Of a stretch of 64,000 nucleotides of DNA, positions 1 through 48,580 are shown one piece after another. The notes under the pieces were generated by a model. The model searched no databases. It had not been told where the DNA came from and saw only the letters and a list, made by a program, of their open reading frames with translations. This DNA comes from Bryum argenteum. Lineage: Eukaryota; Streptophyta; Bryopsida; Bryales; Bryaceae. Within the stretch, counting starts at the first letter, position 1. The number at the start of each line of letters is the position of its first letter. The position numbers and the translations under genes were made by a program. Where the stretch lies: the NCBI GenBank assembly GCA_037043015.1, contig CM073330.1, forward strand, positions 10,620,512-10,684,511. Reading direction: 5' to 3'.

Positions 1-1185
1 TTGCAGAGAGAGAATAGCGTTGGATGGGAAAAGCAATGTACCTGGTGTGGGCGAGGTGAGAAGACATTCCATTGCGGGAAATGCGAGAAAGTGTTTTGCG
101 AAGGATGCATAGTCCGGAATTACAGTTTGGCTCTCATGTGTGCAGACCGCAATTGGAGTTGTTTTTGTTGCAATCCTGCTCTCGTGTCGGTTCATATCGA
201 TTAGCTTCAGGAGTTTCGAAAATTGGAAGCAAATCGATCCTCCATACTTGCAGAGTAAGACTCGGTAACCAATTGTGGTGTTTGGAAACATTCTCCATTT
301 GATTAGCATAAATTAAGGCAGATGATGCTAAGATTATAAATGCTACAAAAATATAATTGTGGATCTGATTGACTAGCAGTGTAAAGGCGGAGGTTCCTCT
401 TAGAAATCCGACCATTGAAGAGATGTTCAAGGCTCGAAATCTAGAGGTAATGGAATGCTGAAAGTGACCCTGTTCTAAAATGATCTTTCAAGCTCAGTAG
501 TGAGTCTTCAAAGTGATCCAATGTTTTTTTATGACAAGTAATACGTAGTCAAGTAACGGAAGTGTCGAGAAATAATTTATCAGATAGTGAGCATTATTTG
601 CATCGAGTTTGTATTGATATACAATCAAACATAAAAAAGAACAAGATTATGTTACTCATATTACTCGTGTTTGAGAAGCTAATCCCTCTATTGATAATGG
701 CAGGAGCGGAAGAAACGCACAAGTAATGGCAGTCAAAGCTCCAAAGTGACATCAAGAGTTTCCAATCCTAAAAAGAATAGGAGAAGAGATTCAACTGAGG
801 AGCATGCACGAGAGAACAATCGACAAAAGGGCAGTGCAAATCAACCAATTCCAGAAGAGCCAGTTCCACCGCCTCTAACATACATCCGACCTCATCAGGT
901 TCTCCTCTTCAACCAACATAATATGGAGAAGATGATAAATGCAACATACAAGAGATTGACTTATGATGATTGCAGATGAGGGAGAAACGTCGACAGGCAG
1001 CGGAAGGCGAGAGGCAGCAATACAACATCTCAAACGCCTTGAATCTTCAACATCCGAAGAGAGTTCGATCAAAAGAAATCTCTCCAACAAATTCAAGAAG
1101 ATGTCCAGTGATGGCGAGGAGCTTTGAACACCCTCAAGACAACACCCATCCCTACTTGCTAAATCATGTCAGCTGTCCATTTTGA
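1..1185 (+). pseudogene. 3' part of an ADD zinc-finger gene (paralogue of the 34-37 kb gene), probably broken
   Basis: The gene enters from the left edge. Inferred exons are 7-254, 380-446, 704-898 and 976-1185, all with AG/GT borders and the same phases as the paralogue at 34.0-37.2 kb. The first exon encodes the PHD-like half of an ADD domain (QCTWCGRGE, FHCGKCEKVFC, GCIVRNY, NWSCFCCNP), close to the paralogue and to the QCRWC...FC..C...N.W.C..C pattern of ATRX. The second ends ARNLE, as the paralogue ends NQNLE. The third is basic and ends RPHQ (paralogue QPHQ). The last is basic and ends at 1183-1185. An in-frame TAG at 202-204 follows the last zinc-ligand cluster, while the downstream exons stay open. 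So this is either a recent pseudogene or a gene making a protein that stops right after the ADD module. ADD domains read unmodified histone H3 tails in ATRX and DNMT3; any such role here is inference. Confidence 0.6.
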
Positions 1186-1904: not shown

Positions 1905-4770
1905 TTAGCTTGCGCCAGGCCACATCATCTGCTCCCCTATGCACATTCGCCGGACGCTCCTCAAGTCTTTGTGATCGCTTGTTTGATCAACCAATGTGAT
2001 TTCATAAACCTTTGGCCACAGTTTCCCAGTAACTGCGAATACGCACATACCAATTTGCCGTCAAAGATACGAATGTCTCATTTGTGTACATTCACATTCA
2101 AAATAAGCGAACGAGCACAAATAGAAAAAGAGTACTAAAGGTTAAAGCCTCATGTCATCTGTACCATGATAACAGAGCCTTCCCGATGACATGAACCAAG
2201 TATACAGAAACAGGAGTGCTCACCGAAGAGTCTATCTCGCTCGCTATCCCAGGCAATTCCATTGAGCACATCCATTCCCTGGTGATGAAGTGAACAACGT
2301 GTAAGGATTTAACGAACACTATTTTAAGAATAAGTGTAGAACAGATAGTCCTGGACTTCGTGATCAAACGTCGGAATCCTGGTAACTAGAGAGTTCTCAT
2401 CTGTAGTAAGTAACCATAATGACGATTCGCATCTCTACAAGTGTCCGCGTTAGAACAACGTGGATGCACAGCACAAGGAAGATGGAAACCTCGGACGGAT
2501 AATCACTTACCATCACTCCCTGGGCTATCAGAGCACTCCTGCAATTTTAGAGGAGGTTATGAGTTGTCTTTCGAAATGCAGGAGGTGCACAAGAATTGGC
2601 ACAACACAAAATAGACTTGGTCTGAACATAGTGAGCAACACCAGAACTGACTAGCGAGAGAACAGACCCCTGCCAAAGTGATTAAAGAAAATTTCTCAAG
2701 GCCACATTACCTCAGGCCACGCATGAGAACCCAACCCGTGACTCTTCCATCCTGCGGTGCGATTCTTGCAATACACTCTGTCTGCAGAGCCAAAGAGATC
2801 AATAACCAAGACAGCATTCACCACAAGCAAACCACGTGTATGCTCCAAGAAGGCGACTTAAGCACGAACAAGAAATTGAGCACATTACCTGATAGACATT
2901 TGCCCAAATGTCACCGTGAATATACTCTAACTCGTTTAAGTTCGGAACTAGCTGACCGTTGTCTTTGACTACTACCTTCCTAATCTCTGGACATTCCAAC
3001 ACAAGGATATTCAGCATGGAGAATTGTCACACTAAATTTAAAAGACCTCACCTCAAAGATTGCCGGTTCCGAAGTGTTACCTTTGAAAGTCGAGGGATCC
3101 ATGAAGTAAATGTTAGCAGTGCCGTCACTCCCAATTATATGATCCTTCCCTGAAGTGAGACCCCACCCGTCTTGCATGGGATGCTTGAAGCTATCAACCT
3201 GACCGGTAGACAAACATGCGGTCAGGTTGAAAGCGAATCGCATTAGAGCATAATATTCATCTGAACAAAGTGGAATGTGTTACGTGAATTTCTTGTCAAG
3301 GACACCAATACTAACGTAGATCACATAAGTGTCAAGAAAACACACCACTTTTAGTGTGTCCTTGTCATAGATGTATCCCTTTCTTGATAACCAAGTCACT
3401 TGCAACAACCTGCGCGAGTTTACTTTTTAGTGTTAACAGAAATTTCAGATCATGTCAAGATTAGAAAATCTCGATCTTATACTGCAATACTGCACATAAA
3501 ACTGCTGTATGTTGCACAATAAAAGTTGGCACATAGTCAGTTCCACACCTGGATCCCCACAGGGTCAAACCCTCCCCAAAGAGCGACTGATCCATTCTTC
3601 GTTTTTGCAGCACCTGCTTTCACACAGATGACTAAGCAACTGTTGCTGATATTCACCATTCAAGGGACTTTCACTCAACACCGACAGCTCTACATTGCTA
3701 AGAGTACTCCACAAAGTAAAGCAAAGGGCTTGGTTACCTTGCCGGTCTTCACGTCAACTTTCCGAACAGAGGACTGCAAAAACAGAAACGTTTGTGTCAG
3801 ATAACTATAGTTTGAAAAAAGCTACGATAATCATTAACCTGCACAACTAAAAACAATCTAACTTCGAGACTTCGCTCCAACTTATAGCTAATTTTCTCAA
3901 AGCTTCAAAAAGCTAAAGCACATAGTTGAGGGGTCACGAAGTGAAACTTACCTTGCCATTGAGACCGGTTGATTCATAAAACGTGTCATTGCCTTCGTAT
4001 AATAATCCCTGCGACCCAACCAGTACAATCTTCGTAAGGCAAACATCACGGTACGTATCAAAATTTCCAATTGAGATCAGGTGTGCAGTATCTACCGTAT
4101 CAAGAATCCAATCGACATGCCATAAAGGTAATGAAACAGAGTCAATTTCATCTTCTTCGATGAAGTGCCAAAACGTTCAGCTGCTGCAGAGAAGTGAACT
4201 TTTCCAATTCTTTTTAGAGTAACTCCACTGACAGTGAAACGAAGCACTAAACTATCTTATACTATGGATAATTGCAATTGTAACAAATGGCCGGCATACA
4301 TTGCAAGAAAGATATAAATGCTGGCGAACCTGATTGAATGCATCCGGATCATGAGGATCACCCGGACATACTCGAAATGCTTCAGAAGAGTCCTCTTCTC
4401 TGACGAAGCACTAACCTATTTCATGCTAGAGAGAATTGCAATTTTGACAGGTGATCGGCAAAAATGTGTATGAAAGATAGAAATGCTCGCGAACCTGAGT
4501 GAATGCATCCGGATCATGAGGATACTCCGCAACGACTTTGTAACCAAAAACGCGAACCACATCTTCGTCAGACGTACTCCTCCGATTCCAGTAGAATCCA
4601 AGGAAAATAAGTGCCGCAATCAGCAGGATAAGCGAAATTGCGGCTGAGTAACGCCACACCGAAGCATTGCGAGCCTCGGTACGAAAAGGACGCTTCGGCT
4701 TGACCATCGCTTCTCGAGCTAAATTTTTAATCCTACTGCTCCGATGTTCCGCTCCCATAGAAATTCGCAT
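1905..4770 (-). CDS. Glutaminyl-peptide cyclotransferase, plant type (beta-propeller glutaminyl cyclase)
   Basis: Converts N-terminal glutamine of peptides to pyroglutamate in the secretory pathway (EC 2.3.2.5). Eleven exons, in coding order: 4495-4770, 3952-4008, 3738-3773, 3549-3613, 3349-3409, 3081-3198, 2889-2986, 2711-2781, 2511-2538, 2224-2278, 1905-2032. All have GT/AG borders, and together they make 993 nt (330 residues) with one unbroken frame, close to plant homologues. Residues about 1-40 are basic and cytosolic; a membrane anchor follows (ISLILLIAALIFLGFYW). The propeller motifs then appear in order: YPHDPDAFTQ, GLLYEGNDTFYESTG, FGEGLTLWG, QVTW, DGWGL, GSDGT, LNELEYI, IWANVYQ, DVLNGIAWD, VTGKLWP. 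These include the Phe/Gln, Glu, Trp, Asn and Lys positions remembered as the active site of papaya QC. Translation could also start at the second in-frame ATG (4758). It is the left partner of a co-oriented gamma-glutamylcyclotransferase. No defect seen. Confidence 0.93.
4255..4600 (-). repeat. Tandem duplication of the exon-1 end inside intron 1 of the glutaminyl cyclase
   Basis: The 3' end of exon 1 plus the start of intron 1 (about 4418-4600) is repeated at about 4255-4400. The second copy keeps the coding tail (CATGATCCGGATGCATTCA, encoding HDPDAF) and an intact GT donor, lying about 160 bp downstream of the real donor on the minus strand. The copies differ by scattered substitutions, so the duplication is not very recent. 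The extra donor could give an alternative 5' splice site. Confidence 0.75.
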
Positions 4771-6238
4771 AGGAGACCTTTCTGTTCAAGCTCGCGTATT
4801 CGCCATAGCTAACCTACAAATTCGTAGATCGCGGCAAAAGATCGGGAAACAGGAAATGACTCTCGCATCTCGAAAATCTAAACTGTGCACGCTCTCATAT
4901 CGATTGGAGCGATCTGATAGCTTTCCGCTCATACTGTTCATACTCTTCGTTTCTGGTTGCGAAACCCTGAACGACTACTGAGGTCGCCATCGCCACAGCC
5001 GGATTGCTGCAGTAGCAGCAAAGTCCACCATTCTCTTCTTCGTGAAAGGTATACGAACTATGTAGGTCCTAGTTTGTAGGACCCGGACAATCATACTAAT
5101 ATTAATAAATTAAATAGAAAACGAAAAAAGAGCAAGAAAGGTTGAATCTATATATATATAATTTTTATTTATTTATGTTGAATCAAAATAATCCAAATAC
5201 TTGGTATCCCAATTAACCCCTAATGTTGTAAGGTCTCAAAACTGCCAAAAAGCCTTGAAGCAACCCTCAGTTATTGCAAGGTGCAAATTTTTAAGTTTTG
5301 AGAAACTTTTGTAGATGTAACCATAGGATCTAGTATCTAACTTGTATATGTATGTGTGTATGAATTCAATTTTCCTCACCAATCGTGTGATCATAATGAT
5401 CAGAGTTGAAAAAGAAAGTTTTTTTCCTAGTTGTGAAATAGGTTTGAAGTGTTTTTCGAGCCTAAAAACCAATTTCAAGAGTGAAGTTGAATTAAGGCTT
5501 TTCAAATCCTTGTTCCCAAGGAAGTTACGATGACATATACATATTTTTCACCCTTGTTGGATCTATGCCACCTAATAGAAATGCTTGATTATTGACATGG
5601 AGGTATGCCAGAAATGCAAATACAAAGGCTAGTCTTTGACAATCTTGGGCAGATTCTGAGTAGCGTTTTCAAACTTTGACCTCGAATGTCTCTCAATGTA
5701 TGAGGAATTTTAAAGCTCAATAGGTATGGTAAAATTCTACTATGTGCAAATAGTGTCAAGTTCATACAAGAGCTTGACCATAGTCTTATAAATGCAAAGC
5801 CTCCTCGTTCTGCATAGTGCCTTATTCTTTGCACAGCCCGGAATCTAGAAGAAGTATAATGAATGTCTCTTGTGACCTCGAGAGACACTCATCATTTTTT
5901 TGGTTACAATTGATAAACATAGGTTTCTTAGCAACTTGAATCCTTGCAATATTTAGGCCTTATAAACTCCAATCTATGACATACTTTGTTGATTTGAAAA
6001 AAACTTGAGTTTAGACTCATGTATAATTTTATTACATTTTTTCTTTTTGAGTACGAGTATAATCTTGAAGTAAGAGCTCGAGAATTTTCACATACCGAAG
6101 GTGGGCATGCCTTTTTTGATCTCAATGTTGAACAGTCTCTAAATGAATTCACAATGACATAAGGGTCACTATAAAGAATGCAGCATCCCAATTGGGAGTG
6201 ACTAATGTAATCAGTGGTATCAATGGTGGCAGGAATTT
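4771..6238. other. Intergenic between two minus-strand genes
   Basis: Holds the presumed promoter and 5' flank of the glutaminyl cyclase (4771 to about 5050, moderately GC-rich) and the presumed 3' UTR of the next gene (just below 6239). Between them is AT-rich DNA with no gene I can support. A TTAACCCCTAA motif at 5213-5223 matches the terminus of the TTAA-flanked small elements seen elsewhere in the window, but no matching right end lies nearby. Confidence 0.45.
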
Positions 6239-12258: not shown

Positions 12259-12572
12259 CGCTTTACACGAGGGGTCAAGCCATTGATGGTGCCAATTCAT
12301 GGCCAAATCCTCTCTTGTGATTAGTCTAATTCTTGAAATTGGCATGAAGGGCTTTACATGTGGAGTCAAGGCCAATTTTATGAAAGTATATTATAATGGG
12401 TGGGGAACAAGTTATGACACGGCCCGCACTTGAAAAGTTGGGAGAAACAAGAATGGAAGGCCAATTCATGTATTTATTAATTGTATAATGTGACCCATGG
12501 AGCCAATTGGGCTCAAAATGTGAGCGAAGTGACTTAAAGATTTTTTTAGCCTTGACTCCCCATGTAAAACGT
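12259..12572. mobile_element. Small inverted-repeat element related to 10247-10403
   Basis: The left end ctttacacgaggggtcaagcc and right end ccttgactccccatgtaaaa are imperfect inverted repeats. An inner copy of the terminus (ctttacatgtggagtcaagg) lies near 12352, so the unit may be composite. It shares tctcttgtgattagtctaat with the 10.25-kb copy. No coding capacity. Confidence 0.4.
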
Positions 12573-13718: not shown

Positions 13719-13886
13719 GTAAGTCATCACGCCAAATTCTCCATCACGGATATGCAAATATGAGAAATAGACCTTAGGTTGCAATGCAACAGTATTGAGC
13801 TCTCGATGAGGGCTGAGAATTACTTGGGGTTGGAGTATTTGGATTGAGTGGAGTGATTTAGATCTGTGCTTGTTTGCAGGGACGAT

Positions 13887-14968
13887 ATGAGCATGGGTGC
13901 GAGCATGAAGGTGGCGGTGCTACTGTCGGTGCTGGGCTGTCTAGCATCGTTGGTGCACGGGCAGGGATGGCGCGATGATGGTCACATCACATTCTATGGC
14001 GCCCCGAACGGACAAGGGACGCAAGCCGGAGCGTGCGGATACCAGAACACGTACGCGTTGGGTTACGGCTCCATGACTGCGGCTCTGAGCTCTCCTCTGT
14101 TCCAGGGAGGCGCAGCTTGCGGCGCTTGCTATCAGATCAAATGCAAACCCGCCGACTTGCGTCGCGGCGGTGCTAAGAATTGGTGCTGGAGCTACGCCAA
14201 GACCATCACTATCACTGCTACCAACCTTTGCCCGCCTGGTTCCACTGGTGGCTGGTGCGACAACCGCCCCCACTTCGACCTTACCATGCCGGCTTTCCTT
14301 GCCCTCGCTAGAAAGGAAGGAGGTGTCGCCCCTGTCTACTACCGCAGGTATGCAAATTCTAAATCCCAGTATAAACCTGCAGATCCCTAATCATTCCTCT
14401 ACTACCGAAGCTCCTATCCTGACCTTGAAGACGAGCTTCTTAACAACTCTGTGATTCCTGAATTCAAATCTTAATGCAGAGTGTGAAATTTATCATTCTG
14501 ATCGATTCAAATGTAGGGCTGTTCGCGTTTGAATCTCAACCAGTAGGTTCATTCCGATTCCGATTCCGCAGTATGTATCTTCCGGTTCAGTAAATTTTCG
14601 ATGAGGTGGTTGCCATTGGGGTGGTTTCTGAATATTGGATTTGCTGCTCCGTGCATGGTGGCAGGGTGAGGTGTGCCAAGAGGGGAGGAGTGCGCTTCAC
14701 AGTGGGAGGCAACCCATGGTTCATGATGATTTTGATCCACAACGTAGGAGGAGCAGGTGACGTTCGGGCGGCGAAGGTGAAGGGTCAATACTCAGGGTGG
14801 GTGTCGATGACTCGCAACTGGGGAGCACTCTGGACTTGCACAACGAAGCTTTCCGGTCCTCTGTCGTTCATGCTCACCACCAGCGATGGCAGGACCCTCA
14901 CCACCTACAACGCCGTCGGCAACGGATGGCGCTTCGGCCAAACCTGGGAAGGCAAAAACTTCTACTGA
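13887..14968 (+). CDS. Alpha-expansin (cell-wall loosening protein)
   Basis: Secreted protein that loosens wall polysaccharide contacts without hydrolysis. Coding exons are 13887-14347 and 14665-14968 (765 nt, 254 residues, the usual size). The intron has gtatgc/gcag borders and falls in YYRR|VRC, at the junction of the two domains. The in-frame ATG at 13887 or 13905 is chosen because the sequence before it is an intron acceptor. A signal peptide follows (MKVAVLLSVLGCLASLVHG). Domain 1, a six-stranded barrel, shows ITFYG, GACGYQ, ACGACYQIKC, TITATNLCPPG, GGWCD and the HFD triad motif (PHFDLTMPAF). Domain 2, a CBM63-like fold, shows GGVRFTV, VGGAGDV, GWVSMTRNWG and the closing WRFGQTWEGKNFY. 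The GGWC..RPHFD pattern places it with EXPA rather than EXPB. All expected cysteines are present and no defect is seen. An AATAAA-like signal follows at 14993-15000. Confidence 0.95.
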
Positions 14969-20978: not shown

Positions 20979-21118
20979 TTCCCGTCGTCCCGACGGGAAA
21001 GGTCTTTACACGGTACTTTTAAAAAAGTATCCCGTATCTACCATTTTCTCAAACGGTATTTTTTCTCCCTTTCTTTCCCTCTCTATTCATATTTTTTTAA
21101 TACATAAAAGAAGGTAGG
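20979..21118. other. GC hairpin and flank beside the minisatellite, possible Helitron 3' end in reverse
   Basis: A 17-bp palindrome (CCCGTCGTCCCGACGGG) follows CTAGTATGATT. Read in complement it gives a hairpin about 7 nt before CTAG followed by T, which is the usual layout of a Helitron 3' terminus. Unit 2 lacks this sequence at the equivalent place (about 29205). The opposite end is not identified, so the call is tentative. Confidence 0.3.
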
Positions 21119-21720
21119 TAGGTTGGTAAGTTCGTAGGTTGGTAGGTTGGTACATTGGTGGGTTGGTAGGTTGGTACATTGGTGGGTTGGTAGGTCGGTA
21201 CATTGGTGGGTTGGTAGGTCGGTACATTGGTGGGTTGGTAGGTCGGTACATTGGTGGGTTGGTAGGTTGGTACATTGGTGGGTTGGTAGGTTGGTACATT
21301 GGTGGGTTGGTAGGTTGGTACATTGGTGGGTTGGTAGGTTGGTACATTGGTGGGTTGGTAGGTTGGTACATTGGTGGGTTGGTAGGTTGGTACATTGGTG
21401 GGTTGGTAGGTTGGTACATTGGTGGGTTGGTAGGTTGGTACATTGGTGGGTTGGTAGGTTGGTACATTGGTGGGTTGGTAGGTTGGTACATTGGTGGGTT
21501 GGTAGGTTGGTACATTGGTGGGTTGGTAGGTTGGTACATTGGTGGGTTGGTAGGTTGGTACATTGGTGGGTTGGTAGGTTGGTACATTGGTGGGTTGGTA
21601 GGTTGGTACATTGGTGGGTTGGTAGGTTGGTACATTGGTGGGTTGGTAGGTTGGTACATTGGTGGGTTGGTAGGTTGGTACATTGGTGGGTTGGTAGGTT
21701 GGTACATTGGTGGGTTGGAA
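21119..21720. repeat. 24-bp minisatellite, about 25 copies
   Basis: Head-to-tail units of GGTTGGTACATTGGTGGGTT plus GGTA. Most copies are identical; the first few and last are variant (ggtcggtacatt in three early copies, ggttggaagg at the end). The 24-bp period is a multiple of three and has no stop in several frames on both strands, so long open frames here (NPPMYQPT-type repeats on one strand, YIGGLVGW-type on the other) are a by-product and not evidence of a gene. The G-rich strand has many GGTTGG blocks, a motif known to fold into two-layer G-quadruplexes. The array is absent from the duplicated unit at 29.2-29.4 kb. Confidence 0.95.
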
Positions 21721-21740
21721 GGATATTTCTTTCTTATAGT

Positions 21741-23603
21741 TTCTTTCTCTTTCTCCAGGGTCTTTCTTTCTGGCAACATCCTTCATCTATAGTTTTTTTT
21801 TTTAAAAAAAGATAGATAAATTATCTTCCCCTTTATGGCCATTTCTTATATTTTTTTCTTCTCTTATGTTATTTCTTCTCACTTGTTATGTTAAATCTAA
21901 TTCGTAACCGTTGCTTGGAAGATCGTCATTTGGGAAGTTGCAACTACAAGATGCTTAACTATTAAATTATGATAGGAGCAATCTCACAATTGATTTCTAC
22001 CACCTCTCAAACTTGTTATGTAGCTGATTTCCTCTTAAGAATTATGTTTTCCAAGGTAGCAGCATGCGCATGAAGGAGCGACTAGCTGCAAAGGATCAAC
22101 ATGAGCAACATAGATAAAAACATCAAGACAAGCAATTGCAAGTTTTTGTAAAGAGAGTACATGTTTTTACAACAAGCAATTTTGTGGTAAAGGATTCCAA
22201 GGTAGAGATTTATTTCCATGTACTACAAGGAAATGGGTGTAAAAACGACGAGAAGTTGACACTAAAATGTCCAAATTGACAAGAGCCACCCGAGACTCTT
22301 GTATGTTGTCACCAACCGTTTCGTGTACCAACTCCTAGTCAACAATTTATTTACCTTTAGAGCGTGATATCGGGAAGAATGCTTAAAATTGAGCACTTCC
22401 CTCACCTTTTTTAAACCCTTTACTTTGTTACCATATACTTTACTGCTTGTTTATATAGTAAATTCTTTGAAAAAAATAACATCCTATCAAATCCAAGCTT
22501 AACTCCTTGACTTTATTAATGCAAACAAGGATTTTGGACACTGTGTTGAACTTTTTCTCTAAGTGCATGTGGTTATAGGGGTTCAAGGTTGGAGGATCAT
22601 TTTAAGAATGTCTCGTGCACTAAGACCGCTAGCAGATTGTCTCTAAATCGTCCTCAAACAAATTCCTCTTCTCTTGAGGTAAATGCGATCGACGGAATGG
22701 CAGATCACACGAATTCTTCCTCTCCTGCGGTGGATGCAATCGGCGGATTGGCAATTCCAAGTTCTATCAATTGAATGTTTGTATCCTTAAAAGGTCCTGA
22801 CGTTTGGGCTCATTGAGAATGCAAAGTACGAGGAGTTAGCGATACTCCATGGACCAAGCTTGAGCAGCAGGATGAGTGGCCAAATACGTTTCTTAAGATT
22901 TTGCATGTTTTAAATCTCCAACGTTTATAACTTCTACTTGGTGGTGTTGCAGGTTTGGACCTTGCCGAGGGTTTGTGTTGGTGTGTTTGTGTTTGTTATA
23001 ACTTATTCGATCTCTGCCACGTCGAGTGCAGTAAAAATACTTAGTGACACATATACTTTACGTTTTTTTGAACCAAGTCAACTTCAAACTTTATAATATT
23101 TTCTGTCAATCAATGGGTGTTTGTGTAAATTCTTCCATTGATTGAATTAATGATTTAAGTCCAAGTTTCAAAGTTTGGGTACTCTAACAAAATACTCCAA
23201 ATTCATGCAAATGCCATCAAAGTAAGAAATCATCAATCATGTTATTTTTGTCGAAGTCATGCTTTGGTTTTAAAGGGTTAAGTGGTTTCCACTACAATAA
23301 TCTCATGAAGTATATGGTGGGTTAAAGAAATGAGTTGGAGAAACTTATTACTACCAAGCGTTACTAAAATCTAAAAAACCTCTTGAAATAAAAAATCTTG
23401 TTGAACAAATCAAATGTACGAACGATATAATGAAGCATTAATATTTATGTTGTTTAAATCAAATATAGAAATTAAATATTCATGTGAAATAAAAGAACTC
23501 AAGGTATTGATAGAAGGTCTGGCTAGGTAACTCAAACGTTCTTTGAAGTCCTAAGGGATAATTGAGTACTATGGTGTCGGGAGGCTTCATCTTCAACCAT
23601 GGA
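21741..23603 (+). repeat. Second half of tandem unit 1 (paired with 29440-31430)
   Basis: Colinear with 29440-31430 from agggtctttctttctggcaa to gaggcttcatcttcaaccat, with a few gaps. Landmarks: cttatgttatttcttctcac, gcgcatgaaggagcgactag (gcgcatgaagtagcgactag in the partner), ggtgtaaaaacgacgagaa, and the small open frame at about 22592-22774. Copies differ by many substitutions, so the duplication is old. Confidence 0.7.
22592..22774 (+). CDS. Small unrecognised coding-like segment, conserved between the two tandem units
   Basis: Reads HFKNVSCTKTASRLSLNRP, then QTNSSS, and ends with VDAIGGLAIPSSIN and a stop. The partner at 30441-30572 reads HFRNVASTKTASGLSLDRL and ends VDAIGGLADTSSIS and a stop. 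The frame is kept although the DNA has diverged, and the size difference is an in-frame insertion carrying a second TNSSS...VDAIGGLA-like block. This suggests past coding constraint. No family recognised; it may be an exon of a larger lost gene. Confidence 0.3.
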   Translation, partial: EDHFKNVSCTKTASRLSLNRPQTNSSSLEVNAIDGMADHTNSSSPAVDAIGGLAIPSSIN

Positions 23604-34036: not shown

Positions 34037-37000
34037 ATGGTGTTTACCGATCCTTGTGTGAGGGGTTTTCAGGTTCGCAAGAGAATGAATTGTTGTTCCA
34101 GTCACGGTGATGGTGGCACTTGTAGCAAGTGCGATGACTCCCCTGCTAAAAGCTTCTATTGCACGGCTTGTGCAAAGCGATGTTTGTCTCTCGAAGCGGT
34201 TCGTGAGCATCCGTATCTGAAAGGAGTAGGCATTTGTACCGATTGCTATACTTTTCTCACCAGCAGCCCGTTCACCATCGTAAGCCTCTCCTCTCGCTGT
34301 ACTCCCTTCTAGGTCTAACGAAGAAATGTACATGCGAAGAAATGTACATGCTTTCCTCGGGCTCCTCTGTTACCCTAACTTGCACATTTTCAGGCTATGG
34401 CGATGAGAAAAAACCCTCATATGATATGAGAATGTGGGATATTGCATGAGGATAAGGAAGAAGCTTGTTTGATATGAGAATGGTAGATATAATAGGAGGA
34501 AAACGTTGTTTGAAATGAGGAGTTTGCTGTACAGGACAAGAATGATGGATGTGAAGAGCAATGTCGATGGTGTGGGCAAGGAGGGAAGATTGTGGTGTGC
34601 ACTTGCTGCAACAAGGTCTTCTGTGAGACCTGCATTGTTCGTAACTACGGTTGTCTTCACGGCTTGGCTCTCATTTTACACAACAACAACTGGAGTTGCT
34701 TTTGTTGCTCTCCTGTGCTTCTTGGAGTTCACGTCAAGGAGTTCAAAAACTTCCGCAAGTCCATAACCGGGTATGTCTGTCTCCACATTTTCCCTATCCA
34801 TTTCCCGTTCAAGAGTAGGAGTAACGTTTACTGTCTGTCTCCACATTTTCCTGTCCATTTCCCGTTTCAAGAATAGGAGTAACGTTTACTGTCTGTCTCC
34901 ACATTTTTCCTGTCCATTTCCAGTTTCAAGAACAGGAGTAACGTTTACTGTCTGTCTCCACATTTTTCCTGTCCATTTCCAGTTTCAAGAATAGGAGTAA
35001 CGTTTAGTACCATGCACAGTCTTACCAGCGGGGACATTTTGATATATTGTTTTCTTGTATTTTTGTGAAACGGTGCGGTATGTCGATATATATACGTATC
35101 TCTTACTTTCGTTCTTGAGGAATTTCGAGTCTTTGAGTGTGAACAAAGCATATGAATGTTCGTTGTTGCTTAGAGTATGCACAGCCTTACCAGTACCGGT
35201 GGACATTTCGATATGTTGTTTTATTGTTATTCTGTAAACGGTGCAGTATGTGGATATATATATCTCTTACTTTCATTCTTGCTGTTCAAGGTATTTCGAA
35301 TCTTCCGGTGTGAACAAAGCATATGAATGTTTGTTGTTGGTTAGAGTTCGAGTTGTGATAATCTTGGAGACGTATGGATGTTGCATGTATGAAGTGGTTT
35401 TTGATATTTCGAGCCCTGAACCCTGAGATTGTTTGAATGCAGGGATGTACATGGTGTAAACGAAGGTGTCGATGGTGTGAACAAAGTTATTGATAGTGAA
35501 GATGTTTCAACACTCTTCAGATTCTTCTTGAACCAGAATCTAGAGGTCAGTTACTTATAAAGTTCACACCACCAATGTACGAAGTGTTGAAGAATACGTA
35601 GATACAAGACTGAGGTTAATTTTAATCATTCCACTGTATGATCTGTTTGTACTCAACTTCAGTCATGTAATAGGTTAGTCCTACTTGATTCTTGACCATT
35701 TTCGATAATGCATGGAAATCCAGAAGCTCTTTTTACATGCTCATACTTAACTTGAGTGATGTATGTTGTGTTGAAGACTATGTTGAATATTTAAGACTAC
35801 GTATCTTCCTCAAGGTTCTTTGAGTATCCATTTCGGTGAGCATGATGAATGCAAGAAGCTTGATGATGGTGATTTTGTTTCTGATGTTGGGGAATAACAG
35901 GAAAAGCGAAGTATTGACAAGAAAAGCAGTCGCAGAGGTCGTCCCAAATTGAAGCTCATACAGCAAGTTATGAAGTCTACGAAGTCCACGGGGAATAAGA
36001 AAGAGACTGCTGTTGGAATTGAACGTGTAGGTTGTCGGAAGAGAGGCCGTCCATCAACAAAACTGAAAGGACAGAAGAGTGGTGGAAAACAGGAGGCTGT
36101 GTGCACAACTTCAGCTGATGCTCAATTCCAACCTCATCAGGTAAGCTCCTCTCATATAATTCCACTCTTTGTACTAGCATTCTTTACTAGAATCAATTTG
36201 CAGAATATGTAGTCATCTCTGAAGTCGAAAAAGAGCCATATTTGGGTCGTTTTAAATCAAAACAGGAATGTTGTTCACTACAGATTCTCTTCAAAATAGA
36301 AATTCTGATTGTGTAGAAGATGGTACTTTGGCTGAATATCTCAAGATCTGTATCGTCAACCTTATTAGACAAGATCATTCGGAGGTTGTTTTGGGTACTT
36401 ATTGGTTCGAAATGCGACTTGGGATCATGAATTTAAACATCTCACGTTACGTTGGGATACGAAACATCATATGTTTACAAATCTTCAATCGTACTTAATT
36501 CACAATTTTGTTTTTGTTTGCTGAAATGGCACTTACATTCAATGATTTCTCATTAGCATCTAAAAGTTATATGATTTTGAGTTATGATATCAAAATGAAT
36601 AATCTATCTCAATCTAACTAAGATGTCATCATAAAATGTCATCAAACGTTGTAGTATAAGTTAAACGTTTTTGTGTCTCTTCTGGTCACATCTTTTGTTG
36701 TAGTATAAGTTAAACGTTTTTGTGTCTCTTCTGGTCACATCTTTCCTAGTTTGAGGAAGAAGTTGACAATTTTAGGAAGACGTTGACAAGACCGTCCAGT
36801 TTCATTTGAGATGATTTCGAAACATTTATTGATTATCATTTTAAAGAGCTTTAGTCATGTTATAGTTATGTTCCTATAACGATTCAAACCGTACGTTTGT
36901 ATAGAATTATGGAACCGTTTTGAGATATCGTTTGAAAAAATTGCTTCTTCACTTTTTGTTGCATGCTTTGTAGGTGAAGCTGAAGCTAAGAGGAGGAGGA

Positions 37001-37219
37001 GAATGGAGAAGAAAGTCGTGCCTTACTAAGGTGCTTGTAGAAGAAAGTAAGGGTCTCAATAGCAACATCATTGTCAATGATCCTATTCTTCAACAAAAAG
37101 AAGAACCAAAGGATGTGCACACCGAACTTGCAAAGGTGAAGTTGGAGTACGAAGACTTTGGCTTGGTTCCTCACCCAACTCATTGTGTCAATTGCAATTG
37201 TATCATTCCTAAAGAGTAG
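34037..37219 (+). CDS. ADD-domain protein with two AT-hooks (candidate chromatin reader), apparently intact
   Basis: Five inferred coding exons: 34037 (or ATG 34085)-34279, 34535-34770, 35443-35545, 35901-36140, 36974-37219. Phases agree throughout; the product is 339 residues from the second ATG. Exon 1 holds a GATA-like finger (YCTACAKRC, EHPYLKGVGICTDCYTFL) matching the first half of the ATRX ADD domain. Exon 2 adds the PHD-like half and helix (DGCEEQCRWCGQGGKIVVC, CCNKVFCETCIVRNYG, NNNWSCFCCSPVLLG). Exon 4 carries two AT-hooks, RRGRPKL (about residue 189) and KRGRPST (about 225), in a lysine-rich stretch. The last exon is basic, then acidic, and ends HCVNCNCIIPKE. By family knowledge ADD reads histone H3 tails and AT-hooks hold the minor groove of AT-rich DNA; a nuclear, chromatin-targeting role is inferred. 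No helicase or methyltransferase domain follows, unlike ATRX or DNMT3. The true 5' end is uncertain because an acceptor (ggttttcag) lies at 34072. Confidence 0.75.
34771..35010 (+). repeat. ~58-bp tandem repeat in an intron of the ADD gene, about four copies
   Basis: The unit reads tgtctgtctccacattttcc, tgtccatttcccgtttcaag, aataggagtaacgtttac. It begins right after the splice donor at 34771 and includes its gtatgtctgtctcc, so it has grown from the exon border inwards. A second intronic duplication of about 165-170 bp follows at about 35013-35347 (gcacagtcttaccagc / gcacagccttaccagt). Confidence 0.75.
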
Positions 37220-43830: not shown

Positions 43831-46800
43831 TGCGCCATTAGCTCTGCATACGAATTGATCATTTGAAGTGCTCAGTAAATCATAACTTCTGTTTTCTTGA
43901 ACCCTCGTTCTTGAAAAGTTCACCAAATCGTCGTGATACTTCGTTCTTTTCTTCACAACCAGATTCATTGTTGTTAGACTTGTTATAGCCGTTGTTGTCA
44001 AGTAGTTTACGTTGCAAGTTGTAGTTGGAAGGTTTTCTTGTTTTTGAGTCGCCATGGCTGATAGCAAAGATTTGCTACATGTTCAACGTTTTTCTGGAGA
44101 GCATTTTCACGTATGGAAGTTTCAGATGCAGATTATTCTGAAAGGACGAGAGCTCATGTCTGTTGTTGACGGTACAGACACACTTGCGAATGCATTAGAT
44201 CATGTTGCTTGGCACCGCAAGGATAGTCAAGCTGCAAGTCTTTTAGTTCAGACTCTTGATTATGATATCATGAAGTCACTAGTTACTTGTACCACCGCAC
44301 ATGCAATGTGGAACCAGCTTCTCACCATGCAGGAGCGCAAAGCCAACAATAATTTTGATAGCTTACAGAAAGAGTTCTTCGAACTTAAGTACATCCCAGA
44401 GCAAGGCATCTCTGGTCTCATTGATCGCATATCTGAGATTATCAGTCGCCTTAAAGATCTTAGTGACACCACATTTACTTCTCGGGCTATCATTGTTCGC
44501 TTGCTTTCTAGTCTTCCGCGATCTTACAATCAGCTTAAATGCGCATGGGACAGTGTCGCCAAGAACGAGCAGACACTAGAGGCTCTTACTTTACGTTTGC
44601 TGAATGAAGAAGTGAAGTTACGTGATGAAGCTACCGAAGACGCTACAACTGCATTTGCTGCTTATAGACCGTACTCTAATAATCCTCGCATCAGTGGGAG
44701 CAAGATGAATGTGAATCCTAAACCATGAGAGAATCAGTTCAACAGTGGGAGCAAGCCGTCCTCGAGCACAGGCGATCGGCCGTTTCTTAACTATGAACAG
44801 CGTCAAGCTCGACAAGCCTATTACGACAATCTGAAGAAGACTTCTCGTTGTTACGAATGTGGAGACGAAGGGCATTGGGGACGTGAATGCCCCAAACGTT
44901 TGAAGCGCTTACACGAAGAATCAAAACGTTCTGACTTTACCAAGCCCTCGGTACAAGGTTTTGTAGCTCTCGAATCAGCATCATCAAGCGTCAATGAGCC
45001 ATCAATGGAGCAAGCATTTACAGCTATCTCTCTTTCTTTTGACACCAGTTTCGAAGCCATTTCTTCAATTCCTGAAGACTGTTGGTATGCTGATAGCGGA
45101 GCCACTCGTCACATGTGCTCTCGCTTGGACTGGTTTGCATCAATTGATAGCATATCCGATGGTCAATGGCCGATTCGTGGCATTTCGCCTGAGCCATTGC
45201 ATGCTCGTGGAATTGGCATAATTCGAATTATGTGTTTGGTCGATGGTGTCTCGAAACCTGGTGAGCTTCAAGAAGTTTTATACGTTCCCGGTTTATCAAG
45301 CAATCTTTTCTCCGTCTCGCGTGCTGCATCTCGAGGCATTGATACCATCTGCAGCAAGTCAACGTGCTCCCTTATTTCCAAGAATGAGAAGATCATGGAA
45401 GGAGTTATGATCGGCATGCTGTACAAACTTTCGATTCAAGTTGTTATACCGAGCGAGCGATGTTTAATTGCAGCAAGTATTGGAACCAGTCACCTATGTG
45501 ATGAACGACAACCGCTTCAAATCTGGCATGATAGACTTAGCCACATCAACCATGAGTATATTCGGAAGATGGCTCGATCCGAACTCGTTCATGGCTTACA
45601 GATCACGAACTCTGGTGACGATCTTTTCTGCGAAGGTTGTGTTCATGGGAAACACCATCGTGCACCGTTCCCGTTACATGTAGATCCTCGTGATCGTAAA
45701 GCCAACCCCGGTATGCTTATTCACAGCGACATTTGTTACATGCCTGAAATTTCTCTCAGTATTTTGCTGTTTTTAAGGACGATGCCACGAGCTATCGCAT
45801 GATATATTGTTTAAGAAACAAATCAGACATCTATATCAGCCTTCGCCAAGTTGTTCAGCGTATCCAACGCGAAACGAAACATCCGGTCGAGATTCTTAGG
45901 AGCGATCAAGGCTCTGAATATACGAGCATCAAGACAAAGCAATTCCTGTCCGACAACAACATTCGACAAGAGTTTACATGTGTTTACACCCCGGAACAGA
46001 ACGCCGTTGCTGAGCGAGAATGTCGCATTATTGTCGAAGCGGTTCGTAGCATGCTTTTTGCTCGCAACATTCCTTCAAAATTTTGGGCAGAAGCTGCTCA
46101 CACAGCGACTTACATCCTCAACCGGTCCTATACTCGAACTCAACCAGACAAGACTCCATATGAAGCATGGTTCGGCATCAAACCCTCTGTTGCTCATGTT
46201 CGAGTTTTTGGATGCGATGCTTTTATACACGTTCCGGCTGCCTTGCGGAAGAAATTGTCGAGTAAAACACACAAAGCTATGTTCCTCGGTTACTCTGATG
46301 AGAGCAAAGCTTACCGTCTTTGGGACCATGTTTTACAACGCATTGTTGTTTCCCGTGATGTTATCTTTCACGAGAACACTACAACGGATTCGTCATCACC
46401 AGAAATCCGTCCATCGACCCGTTTTATATCTCCTCTTCAAGTTGACTTCGTTCAACCAGTTGGTGAAATGGCTCATCCTGTTCAGCCTCCCATCGACCCT
46501 TTCCCTCTTGGAGTTCCGCCGCCACCGCCTGATCCCCCAGCACCTCCTGTCGAGATTGACCACCCTGCTATAATCCTGCCGACTCGACTTCGTCCTCGAG
46601 AGAATATCAAAGGACCGAATCTTTATGGAGACTGGGCTTGCATAGCTCAAGGCGAGGATGACAAATTTTCACAATCACATGAACCAAAGTCTTATCAAGA
46701 AGCTTTACGTTCTCCTGACTCTGCTTCGTGGCAAACTGCCATGACTGCTAAGTACGATTCCTTGATACAGAATAAAACTTGGACTCTTGTGCCTCTACCA

Positions 46801-47957
46801 TCCTCTCGCACTGCCATCAAGTGCAAATGGTGTTTCAAGCTTAAGTACAACTCTGATGGCACTATCAATCGCTTTAAGGCGAGACTCGTTGCCAAAGGGT
46901 CCCGGCATTGACTTCACCGAGACCTATTCTCCAATGGTGCGATTTGAAAGCATACGTGCTGTCCTTGCGATTGCTGCGGCCGAAGACCTTGAGATTCGTC
47001 AATTCGACATTCGGACTGCTTTTCTTCATGGTACGATTGACGAAGAACTATATATGGAGCAACCTTCCGGCTTTCTAGATCCTGAACATCCTGATTGGGT
47101 ATGTCGTCTCCACAAATCTCTTCACGGCCTTCGACAAGCATCACGTGCTTGGAACACCCGCTTCGACGACTTTGCTCGGAAGGACAACCTTATTCCAGCA
47201 TCGGACCCTTGTGTGTACGTTTCGACTAATCACCCTGTGCTCATCCTCACCATTTTCGTTGACGATGGATTGATCATCTGCAAATCCACCACTCGCATCG
47301 ACTCTATCATGCACCAAATGAATGGTGTATTTGATAATACAAATGGTACTCCTGACGTTTACGTAGGCTTACGCATTCGAAGAAATCGAGATCTCAAGGA
47401 AATCTTCCTTGATCAACAACTCTACATTGAGCGCATGCTTACTCAATATGGCTTCACCGATTCAGCTCCTGTCAACCTTCCTGCTGATCCTCATCTGGTA
47501 CTCACTTATGGGATGGATCCGGAGATTGATACGGAACCTACCTACCCCTACAGTGAAGCTCTTGGCAGCTTACAATGGGCTCAAGTAGGGACTCGCCCCG
47601 ACATATCTTTTGCCGTGAACAACGCTGCTGCATTCGCGTCTGCACAGACACGATCTCATTGTAGTGCTGTCAAGAAAATCTTTAAGTATCTTCACGGTAC
47701 TAAAACTCTTGGCATTCATTACTCAGCGACTAAACATCTTCAGAATATACTTGTTGCTTATAGTGATTCTGATTATGCCAATGATCCTGCCGACCGCAAG
47801 TCTCGAACTGGCCTTCTTCTCTACGTGAACGGTGGACCTATCGTCTGGGCTAGTTGCAAACAAAATTGCGTTGCCACTTCAACGACGGAAGCAGAATACA
47901 TTGCTGCTTGGATGGCAACGAAAGAAGTTATCTGCATGCGACGCTTGCTTACCGACA

Positions 47958-48580
47958 GGGTGATAGTCTGGTTGGGTTACCCAAAAAGGTTGTCCCATAA
48001 ACAATTGCACTCTATGCTGGTGTGACAAACATATTCATTTTTAAACTGTAATACAATTAGACTTCATTAGATGTGGTTTTAGTTGTCTATACTTATAATG
48101 TATCAAGAAAAAAAATTAAAAATTAAAAAAAATATTTTGAAGTAATTTTATTTGATTTTTTAGTTGAAAAAGTAAGTCATGTCCCAATAATCTAAAATCC
48201 ATTGAATCAAGCAAATGGAATATCAACCATTTTTATTTTAATATAATTTTTGAATATGACCTACATCTTCTTGTATAGAATACAAAATAATTTATTTAAT
48301 AATAAACAAATTAATTCATTGTGCACTATACTGCCTGCAAATCCCCAAATTCAGCACTTTTTCCCTCATCTATGAATGGATCCAAAAAAAATAAAAAATC
48401 TAAAAGAAAATCTATAGGCATATATACTTTGATTTCAGTGAGGTGCATGATATTTTATTTTCTATTTTAGGGTCTTTTTACTTGATTAAAATGACTAAAT
48501 TAGACAAACTTTGGAGGCTTTCAATAAAAATAACCTAATTAGTGTGTCCAAAAAGTGATACCCCAAGCTTACCATTGCCC
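47958..48580. mobile_element. Terminal-inverted-repeat element (GGGTGATAGTCTGGTTGG termini), copy 2
   Basis: The left end GGGTGATAGTCTGGTTGGGT continues tacccaaaaaggttgtcc. The right end in complement reads GGGCAATGGTAAGCTTGGGG then tatcactttttggacac, an imperfect match. 623 bp, AT-rich interior, no coding capacity. It abuts the end of the copia 5' piece. Same left terminus as the element at 16788. Confidence 0.45.

Follow-up and report, generated by a model that had tools for sequence, protein, structure and literature searches.

The window analysed here is a 64,000-nucleotide stretch of the genome of Bryum argenteum (GenBank assembly GCA_037043015.1, contig CM073330.1; C10:10620512-10684511 in an assembly of 258.8 Mb and 25 contigs), and the gene under study, at positions 34037..37219 of its plus strand, encodes a small protein in which an ATRX-type ADD domain is followed by two AT-hook cores. 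The gene is best read, with a probability of about 0.6, as a duplicate of the N-terminal reader module of ATRX, now a separate gene, which would act as a histone- and DNA-binding adaptor. This reading, drawn from sequence comparison and structure models, rests on a complete ATRX-type ADD domain, an intron position in common with ATRX, the lack of SNF2 in the window and the presence of two AT-hook cores.

Gene structure and ADD domain

The window gene consists of the following exons.

34037..34279, plus strand: exon 1, GATA-like half of the ADD domain (CTAC...CTDC; Cys 42, 45, 67 and 70 of 355)
34535..34770, plus strand: exon 2, PHD half of the ADD domain and domain-closing helix (Cys 91, 94, 103, 106, 111, 114, 136 and 139 of 355)
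35443..35545, plus strand: exon 3, linker, ending in AATCTAGAG before the donor GT
35901..36140, plus strand: exon 4, basic, with both AT-hook cores, ending in CCTCATCAG before the donor GT
36974..37219, plus strand: exon 5, tail, basic and then acidic, with terminal HCVNCNCIIPKE and stop codon TAG

The five exons, separated by canonical GT-AG introns, join in frame to a translated protein of 355 aa, which bears out the chain of consistent phases and two ADD halves proposed in an initial annotation made from the sequence alone. The chain is independently supported because its phases and two of its splice junctions are common to a paralogue at the start of the window (winB, see below) and because the intron position inside the ADD domain is common to ATRX. 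The intron between the ADD halves falls at the same residue in the window gene, in the ATRX gene of this genome (region L021) and in the ADD genes of regions L018 and L022, and these three also have the donor position of exon 1. An acceptor-like TTTTCAG followed by GT, seen by eye and ending at 34072, lies upstream of an ATG at 34088, so translation may begin at 34088 (339 aa) and not at 34037. A further helix spanning the junction of exons 3 and 4 was predicted at low confidence by the structure model, and the tail in exon 5 is mostly of very low model confidence. A 59-nt unit occurs in four tandem copies in the second intron (34788-35022).

Residues 39-143 align with the human ATRX ADD domain (2lbm) with an E-value of 8.2e-20. 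In the profile search proposed with the initial annotation, the ADD part alone exceeded the cut-off of Pfam ADD_ATRX (27.2 bits vs 25.7), whereas the full-length protein gave no Pfam match; NCBIfam yielded a single chance match only. All 12 zinc cysteines of the human domain (12/12 in the alignment) are retained, and AlphaFold2, run as another of the checks proposed, predicted the ATRX ADD fold; a prediction without alignment failed (pLDDT 30). Regarding a DNMT3-type ADD domain, this assignment was rejected, the domain being closer to ATRX: the PDB matches at E ≤ 0.1 comprised three distinct sequences, all from ATRX and none from DNMT3.

AT-hook cores

35931..35951, plus strand: first core, RRGRPKL, not matched by Pfam AT_hook
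36039..36059, plus strand: second core, KRGRPST, Pfam AT_hook 8.3 bits (cut-off 17.4)

Both cores and the closing HCVNCNC were found as first quoted. Basic flanks around an RGRP core are part of the AT-hook definition, and such a core with fitting flanks is present twice. Across all six reading frames of the window, RGRP occurs exactly two times, both in exon 4, 36 residues apart in the same open frame; 60 first-order Markov simulations of the window averaged 0.6 occurrences per sequence, and in none of them (0/60) did two fall within 60 residues in a single open frame. RGRP was absent from winB and from the sense-strand frames of L018, L020, L021, L022, L029, L031 and L009, and the AT-hooks therefore look specific to the window gene among the relatives scanned. 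A lone KGRP lies far downstream of the ADD domain of L022, and in L018 the exon matching exon 4 holds VKPKLEVATTQRAQ repeats, a possible source of the RGRP motif. The AT-hook region is probably disordered, as its very low model confidence suggests.

It is rather unlikely that the ADD domain reads H3 tails and the RGRP motifs are just part of a basic disordered linker lacking specificity for AT-rich DNA. The low Pfam score, obtained for one core only, the very low model confidence and the matching exons of winB (basic) and L018 (repeat-rich), neither with RGRP, fit such a linker, but the pairing of the motif in one frame, with none elsewhere in the window and none in the simulations, and the basic flanks argue for AT-hooks.

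Search for a motor or methyltransferase

Five SNF2/helicase peptides from the genome's own ATRX were used as probes, with L021 as a positive control, which was matched. The window, L018, L019, L022 and L038 gave no match at E ≤ 0.1, and L020 gave one weak match (E 0.006). Pfam at 0.01 gave no match in 15 chosen plus-strand downstream frames, out of at least 16 with a length of 63 aa or more, a scan confined to this size class, below which short methyltransferase exons might be missed. Within these bounds the description of the gene as an ADD protein without helicase or methyltransferase agrees with the searches, and the combination that defines the ATRX family, an SNF2 ATPase and a helicase C domain encoded by one gene, was not found in the window gene.

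Relatives in the window and in the genome

A paralogue, winB, lies at the start of the window.

1..254, plus strand: winB PHD exon, truncated by the window start, with a TAG stop in frame at 202-204, behind the PHD part
380..446, plus strand: winB exon 3, ending in AATCTAGAG before the donor GT
704..898, plus strand: winB exon 4, basic, without RGRP, ending in PHQ as in the window gene and in CCTCATCAG before the donor GT
976..1185, plus strand: winB exon 5, in the phase of the window gene

In winB the GATA-like exon falls in L019, shortly before the window begins. Its PHD exon is 55% identical to the window protein over 71 residues (22-222, E 3e-18, tblastn), and its other three exons have the phases of the window gene. 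The junctions CCTCATCAG plus GT and AATCTAGAG plus GT each occur exactly two times in the 64 kb, at corresponding exon ends of the two genes, where shuffled sequence would give 0.03 and 0.06 occurrences, respectively. The homology of winB exons 3-5 rests on the phases and these two splice-junction 11-mers.

A view of the stand-alone ADD domain as a lone oddity is not supported, given the presence of winB, L018 and L022 and of at least 150 matches to the 79-aa PHD exon in the genome at E ≤ 0.001 (150 of 150 scored, of 213 candidates). The matches include ATRX itself, ADD genes without nearby SNF2 and ADD domains carried by transposons. Contig C1 (44.1 Mb, 17% of the assembly) holds 76 of the 150 (binomial 4e-21, a descriptive value only, as copies are not independent), and it may be speculated that C1 is a repeat-rich or sex chromosome. 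Among neighbouring matches 3-40 kb apart, 22 of 27 pairs are head-on. A further 20 regions were chosen among the 150 matches (one being the region upstream of the window), most of them examined for ADD frames and element ends only. L018 and L022 hold further ADD genes without SNF2 within the stretches examined; L022 together with L038 (C8:14712001-14727000) shows an ADD gene with no SNF2 in about 10 kb downstream, and a stretch RRRRRPKPYRP lies in a frame downstream of the L022 ADD domain.

In a tree of 20 rows the window gene was grouped with L036 (support 85/75), which has a long branch and a frame with a stop, and the pair was joined by winB and L020 (81/73). L018 is nearest to the window gene by path, yet lies outside this group; a single clade of the window gene, winB, L018 and L020 was not rejected (p 0.22). 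Between the window gene and L018, dN is 0.29 and dS 1.52. This excess of synonymous over amino-acid change, together with five open, canonical exons and the undiminished set of zinc cysteines, speaks against a decaying partial ATRX-type duplicate without function. That explanation draws on the in-frame stop of the neighbouring winB and on the broken appearance of the related copies L029 and L031, and is considered improbable.

Proposed function

The ADD domain would dock on H3 tails with unmethylated lysine 4 and would probably prefer methylated lysine 9, by analogy with the ADD domain of animal ATRX, for which a preference for H3K9me3 with K4 unmodified is stated in PMC7181051. The AT-hooks may contact AT-rich DNA next to the nucleosome in its minor groove. 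Each contact would be weak, but the pair could jointly keep the protein on AT-rich silent chromatin; there the basic tail might recruit partners, or the protein might compete with ATRX for the same marks. From the sequence we infer that it may bind AT-rich repeats like those surrounding its own gene.

Several points weigh against an adaptor derived from the ATRX reader. The predicted fold could reflect training of AlphaFold2 on ATRX ADD structures in the PDB. Tyr203 of human ATRX is named in PMC3799622 for the K9me3 pocket; a Phe aligns with it (residue numbering derived from the alignment) in both the window gene and the host ATRX, and the ligand preference may therefore differ. Pfam AT_hook lists the second core only, below its cut-off, and the relatives scanned have no RGRP, so that selection on the AT-hooks is hypothetical. 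Regarding winB, the similarity of its exon 3 is borderline (reached by 45 of 1000 shuffles), its exons 4 and 5 beyond the junction are not above shuffles in similarity to the window gene, and its in-frame stop implies that the subfamily decays in part.

ADD-bearing transposons

Three of the head-on pairs (L009-L011 on C3, L012-L014 on C2 and L015-L017 on C5) are copies of one element, 23,352, 24,396 and 23,124 bp long. The element has the ends CAATGTGATTACGG and CAGCTGCAATCCTG, which form inverted repeats of about 63 bp (84%), and is flanked by target duplications that are exact in two copies (AGTAACTCAA and GGAACAAGAC) and agree in 9 of 10 bases in the third. A target-site duplication of 8-11 bp with terminal inverted repeats is given for the MULE superfamily in PMC6446971; the ADD-bearing elements show both features, with 10 bp in two of three copies and 9 of 10 bases in the third. 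All three copies contain three ADD-PHD frames each, which in the C3 copy lie at L009:1991-2572, L009:3821-4470 (two frames) and L011:1882-2136. The transposase-like frame is interrupted by a stop in the C3 copy and open over 1000 aa in the C5 copy; the latter was unmatched in Pfam (up to E 10) and in the PDB (up to E 1). By eye only, D..CxxH and SWIM-like CxC..CxH motifs were seen in it, as possible signs of a MULE transposase. First ADD, second ADD and transposase-like pieces also occur together in L023 and L024, with broken frames in L024.

The first transposon ADD protein matches human ATRX with an E-value of 3e-14 and scores 18.6 with Pfam ADD_ATRX, below the cut-off of 25.7. Pooled pN/pS on the domain was 0.12 for the first ADD (4 copies), 0.32 for the second (PHD only, 5 copies) and 0.18 for the third (PHD only, 4 copies), the copies being chosen, open ones and the pooled pairs sharing branches. 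The transposon ADD domains hint at a possible contest over the same marks. It is tentatively proposed, with less than even confidence, that the ATRX reader is a shared currency of host and transposons, in which very large MULE-like elements with three ADD genes under purifying selection read or mask silent chromatin and host ADD-only genes, one of them with acquired AT-hooks, act on the same marks.

The occurrence of ADD genes inside 23-24 kb transposons of the same genome, and the prevalence of the head-on arrangement of these elements among the paired matches, raise the question of whether the window gene is their cargo or was domesticated from them. A tree uniting the window gene and the first transposon ADD rows in one clade was rejected, however (p 0.0036, a test covering the first ADD type), and the free tree places the gene with L036, winB and L020. 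The 14-base element ends are all absent from the window (0 matches), and blastn of the three elements against the window matched no more than three stretches of 51-60 bp, all of them away from the gene. One unexplained tblastx match over 54 aa (41%, E 4e-6), which would favour a link, pairs window 12305-12466 with a non-ADD part of the C3 transposon close to its left end. On the evidence of the tree, the element ends and blastn, a transposon origin of the window gene is improbable.

Comparison with known systems

The window gene resembles ATRX in ADD sequence, in fold and, within this genome, in the intron position inside the ADD domain; it differs in lacking SNF2/helicase, in having AT-hook cores and in being separate from the genome's ATRX. 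Drosophila dADD1 (CG8290) is described in PMC4249797 as an ADD protein without SNF2, with DNA-binding-type MADF domains added in two isoforms; the window gene is similar in both respects, with AT-hook cores in place of MADF. According to the same source the fly ATRX gene itself lacks the ADD domain, which is read as gene fission, whereas here ATRX keeps its ADD domain and extra ADD genes coexist with it. SPBP (TCF20) and RAI1 share an ePHD/ADD domain, and SPBP an AT-hook, as reported in PMC3799622, but these human proteins are about 1900 residues long and have a long loop in the finger; that source states that proteins of this type were not found in plants. Regarding the transposons, and not the window gene, the nearest known idea is VANC, an accessory protein of Arabidopsis VANDAL elements that acts on the element's own silencing (PMC5735166). 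The VANDAL elements and those of this genome are both DNA transposons with an accessory gene; VANC is not described as an ADD protein in the abstract of that paper, and the elements here are 23-24 kb long with three ADD genes, whose anti-silencing role is putative, by analogy.

Among the top matches listed from the open-licence literature, no transposon-borne ADD genes or plant ADD-only genes were found, which argues only weakly for their absence. SNF2-free ADD proteins are already known from flies, where ATRX lacks the ADD domain; in this genome ATRX is whole, and copies of its reader occur both in transposons and in separate genes, of which one has AT-hooks. Provided that these readers bind H3, they would offer a natural test of ADD function without the motor, as well as an example of a host silencing factor whose histone reader is carried by mobile elements.

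Other features of the window

Rfam (gathering cut-offs) and ARAGORN reported nothing in the window. An expansin gene of two exons lies at 13857-14965 (Pfam DPBB_1 and Expansin_C). A glutaminyl cyclase-like exon is located at 4429-4785 on the minus strand (Pfam Glu_cyclase_2, 18.1 bits vs 22.3), with more exons seen by eye towards 2200. A tandem array at 21090-21789 translates into PTNVPTYQ-like repeated units, with several frames open, and Ty1/copia-like retrotransposon frames were recognised by eye at 44048-48022.
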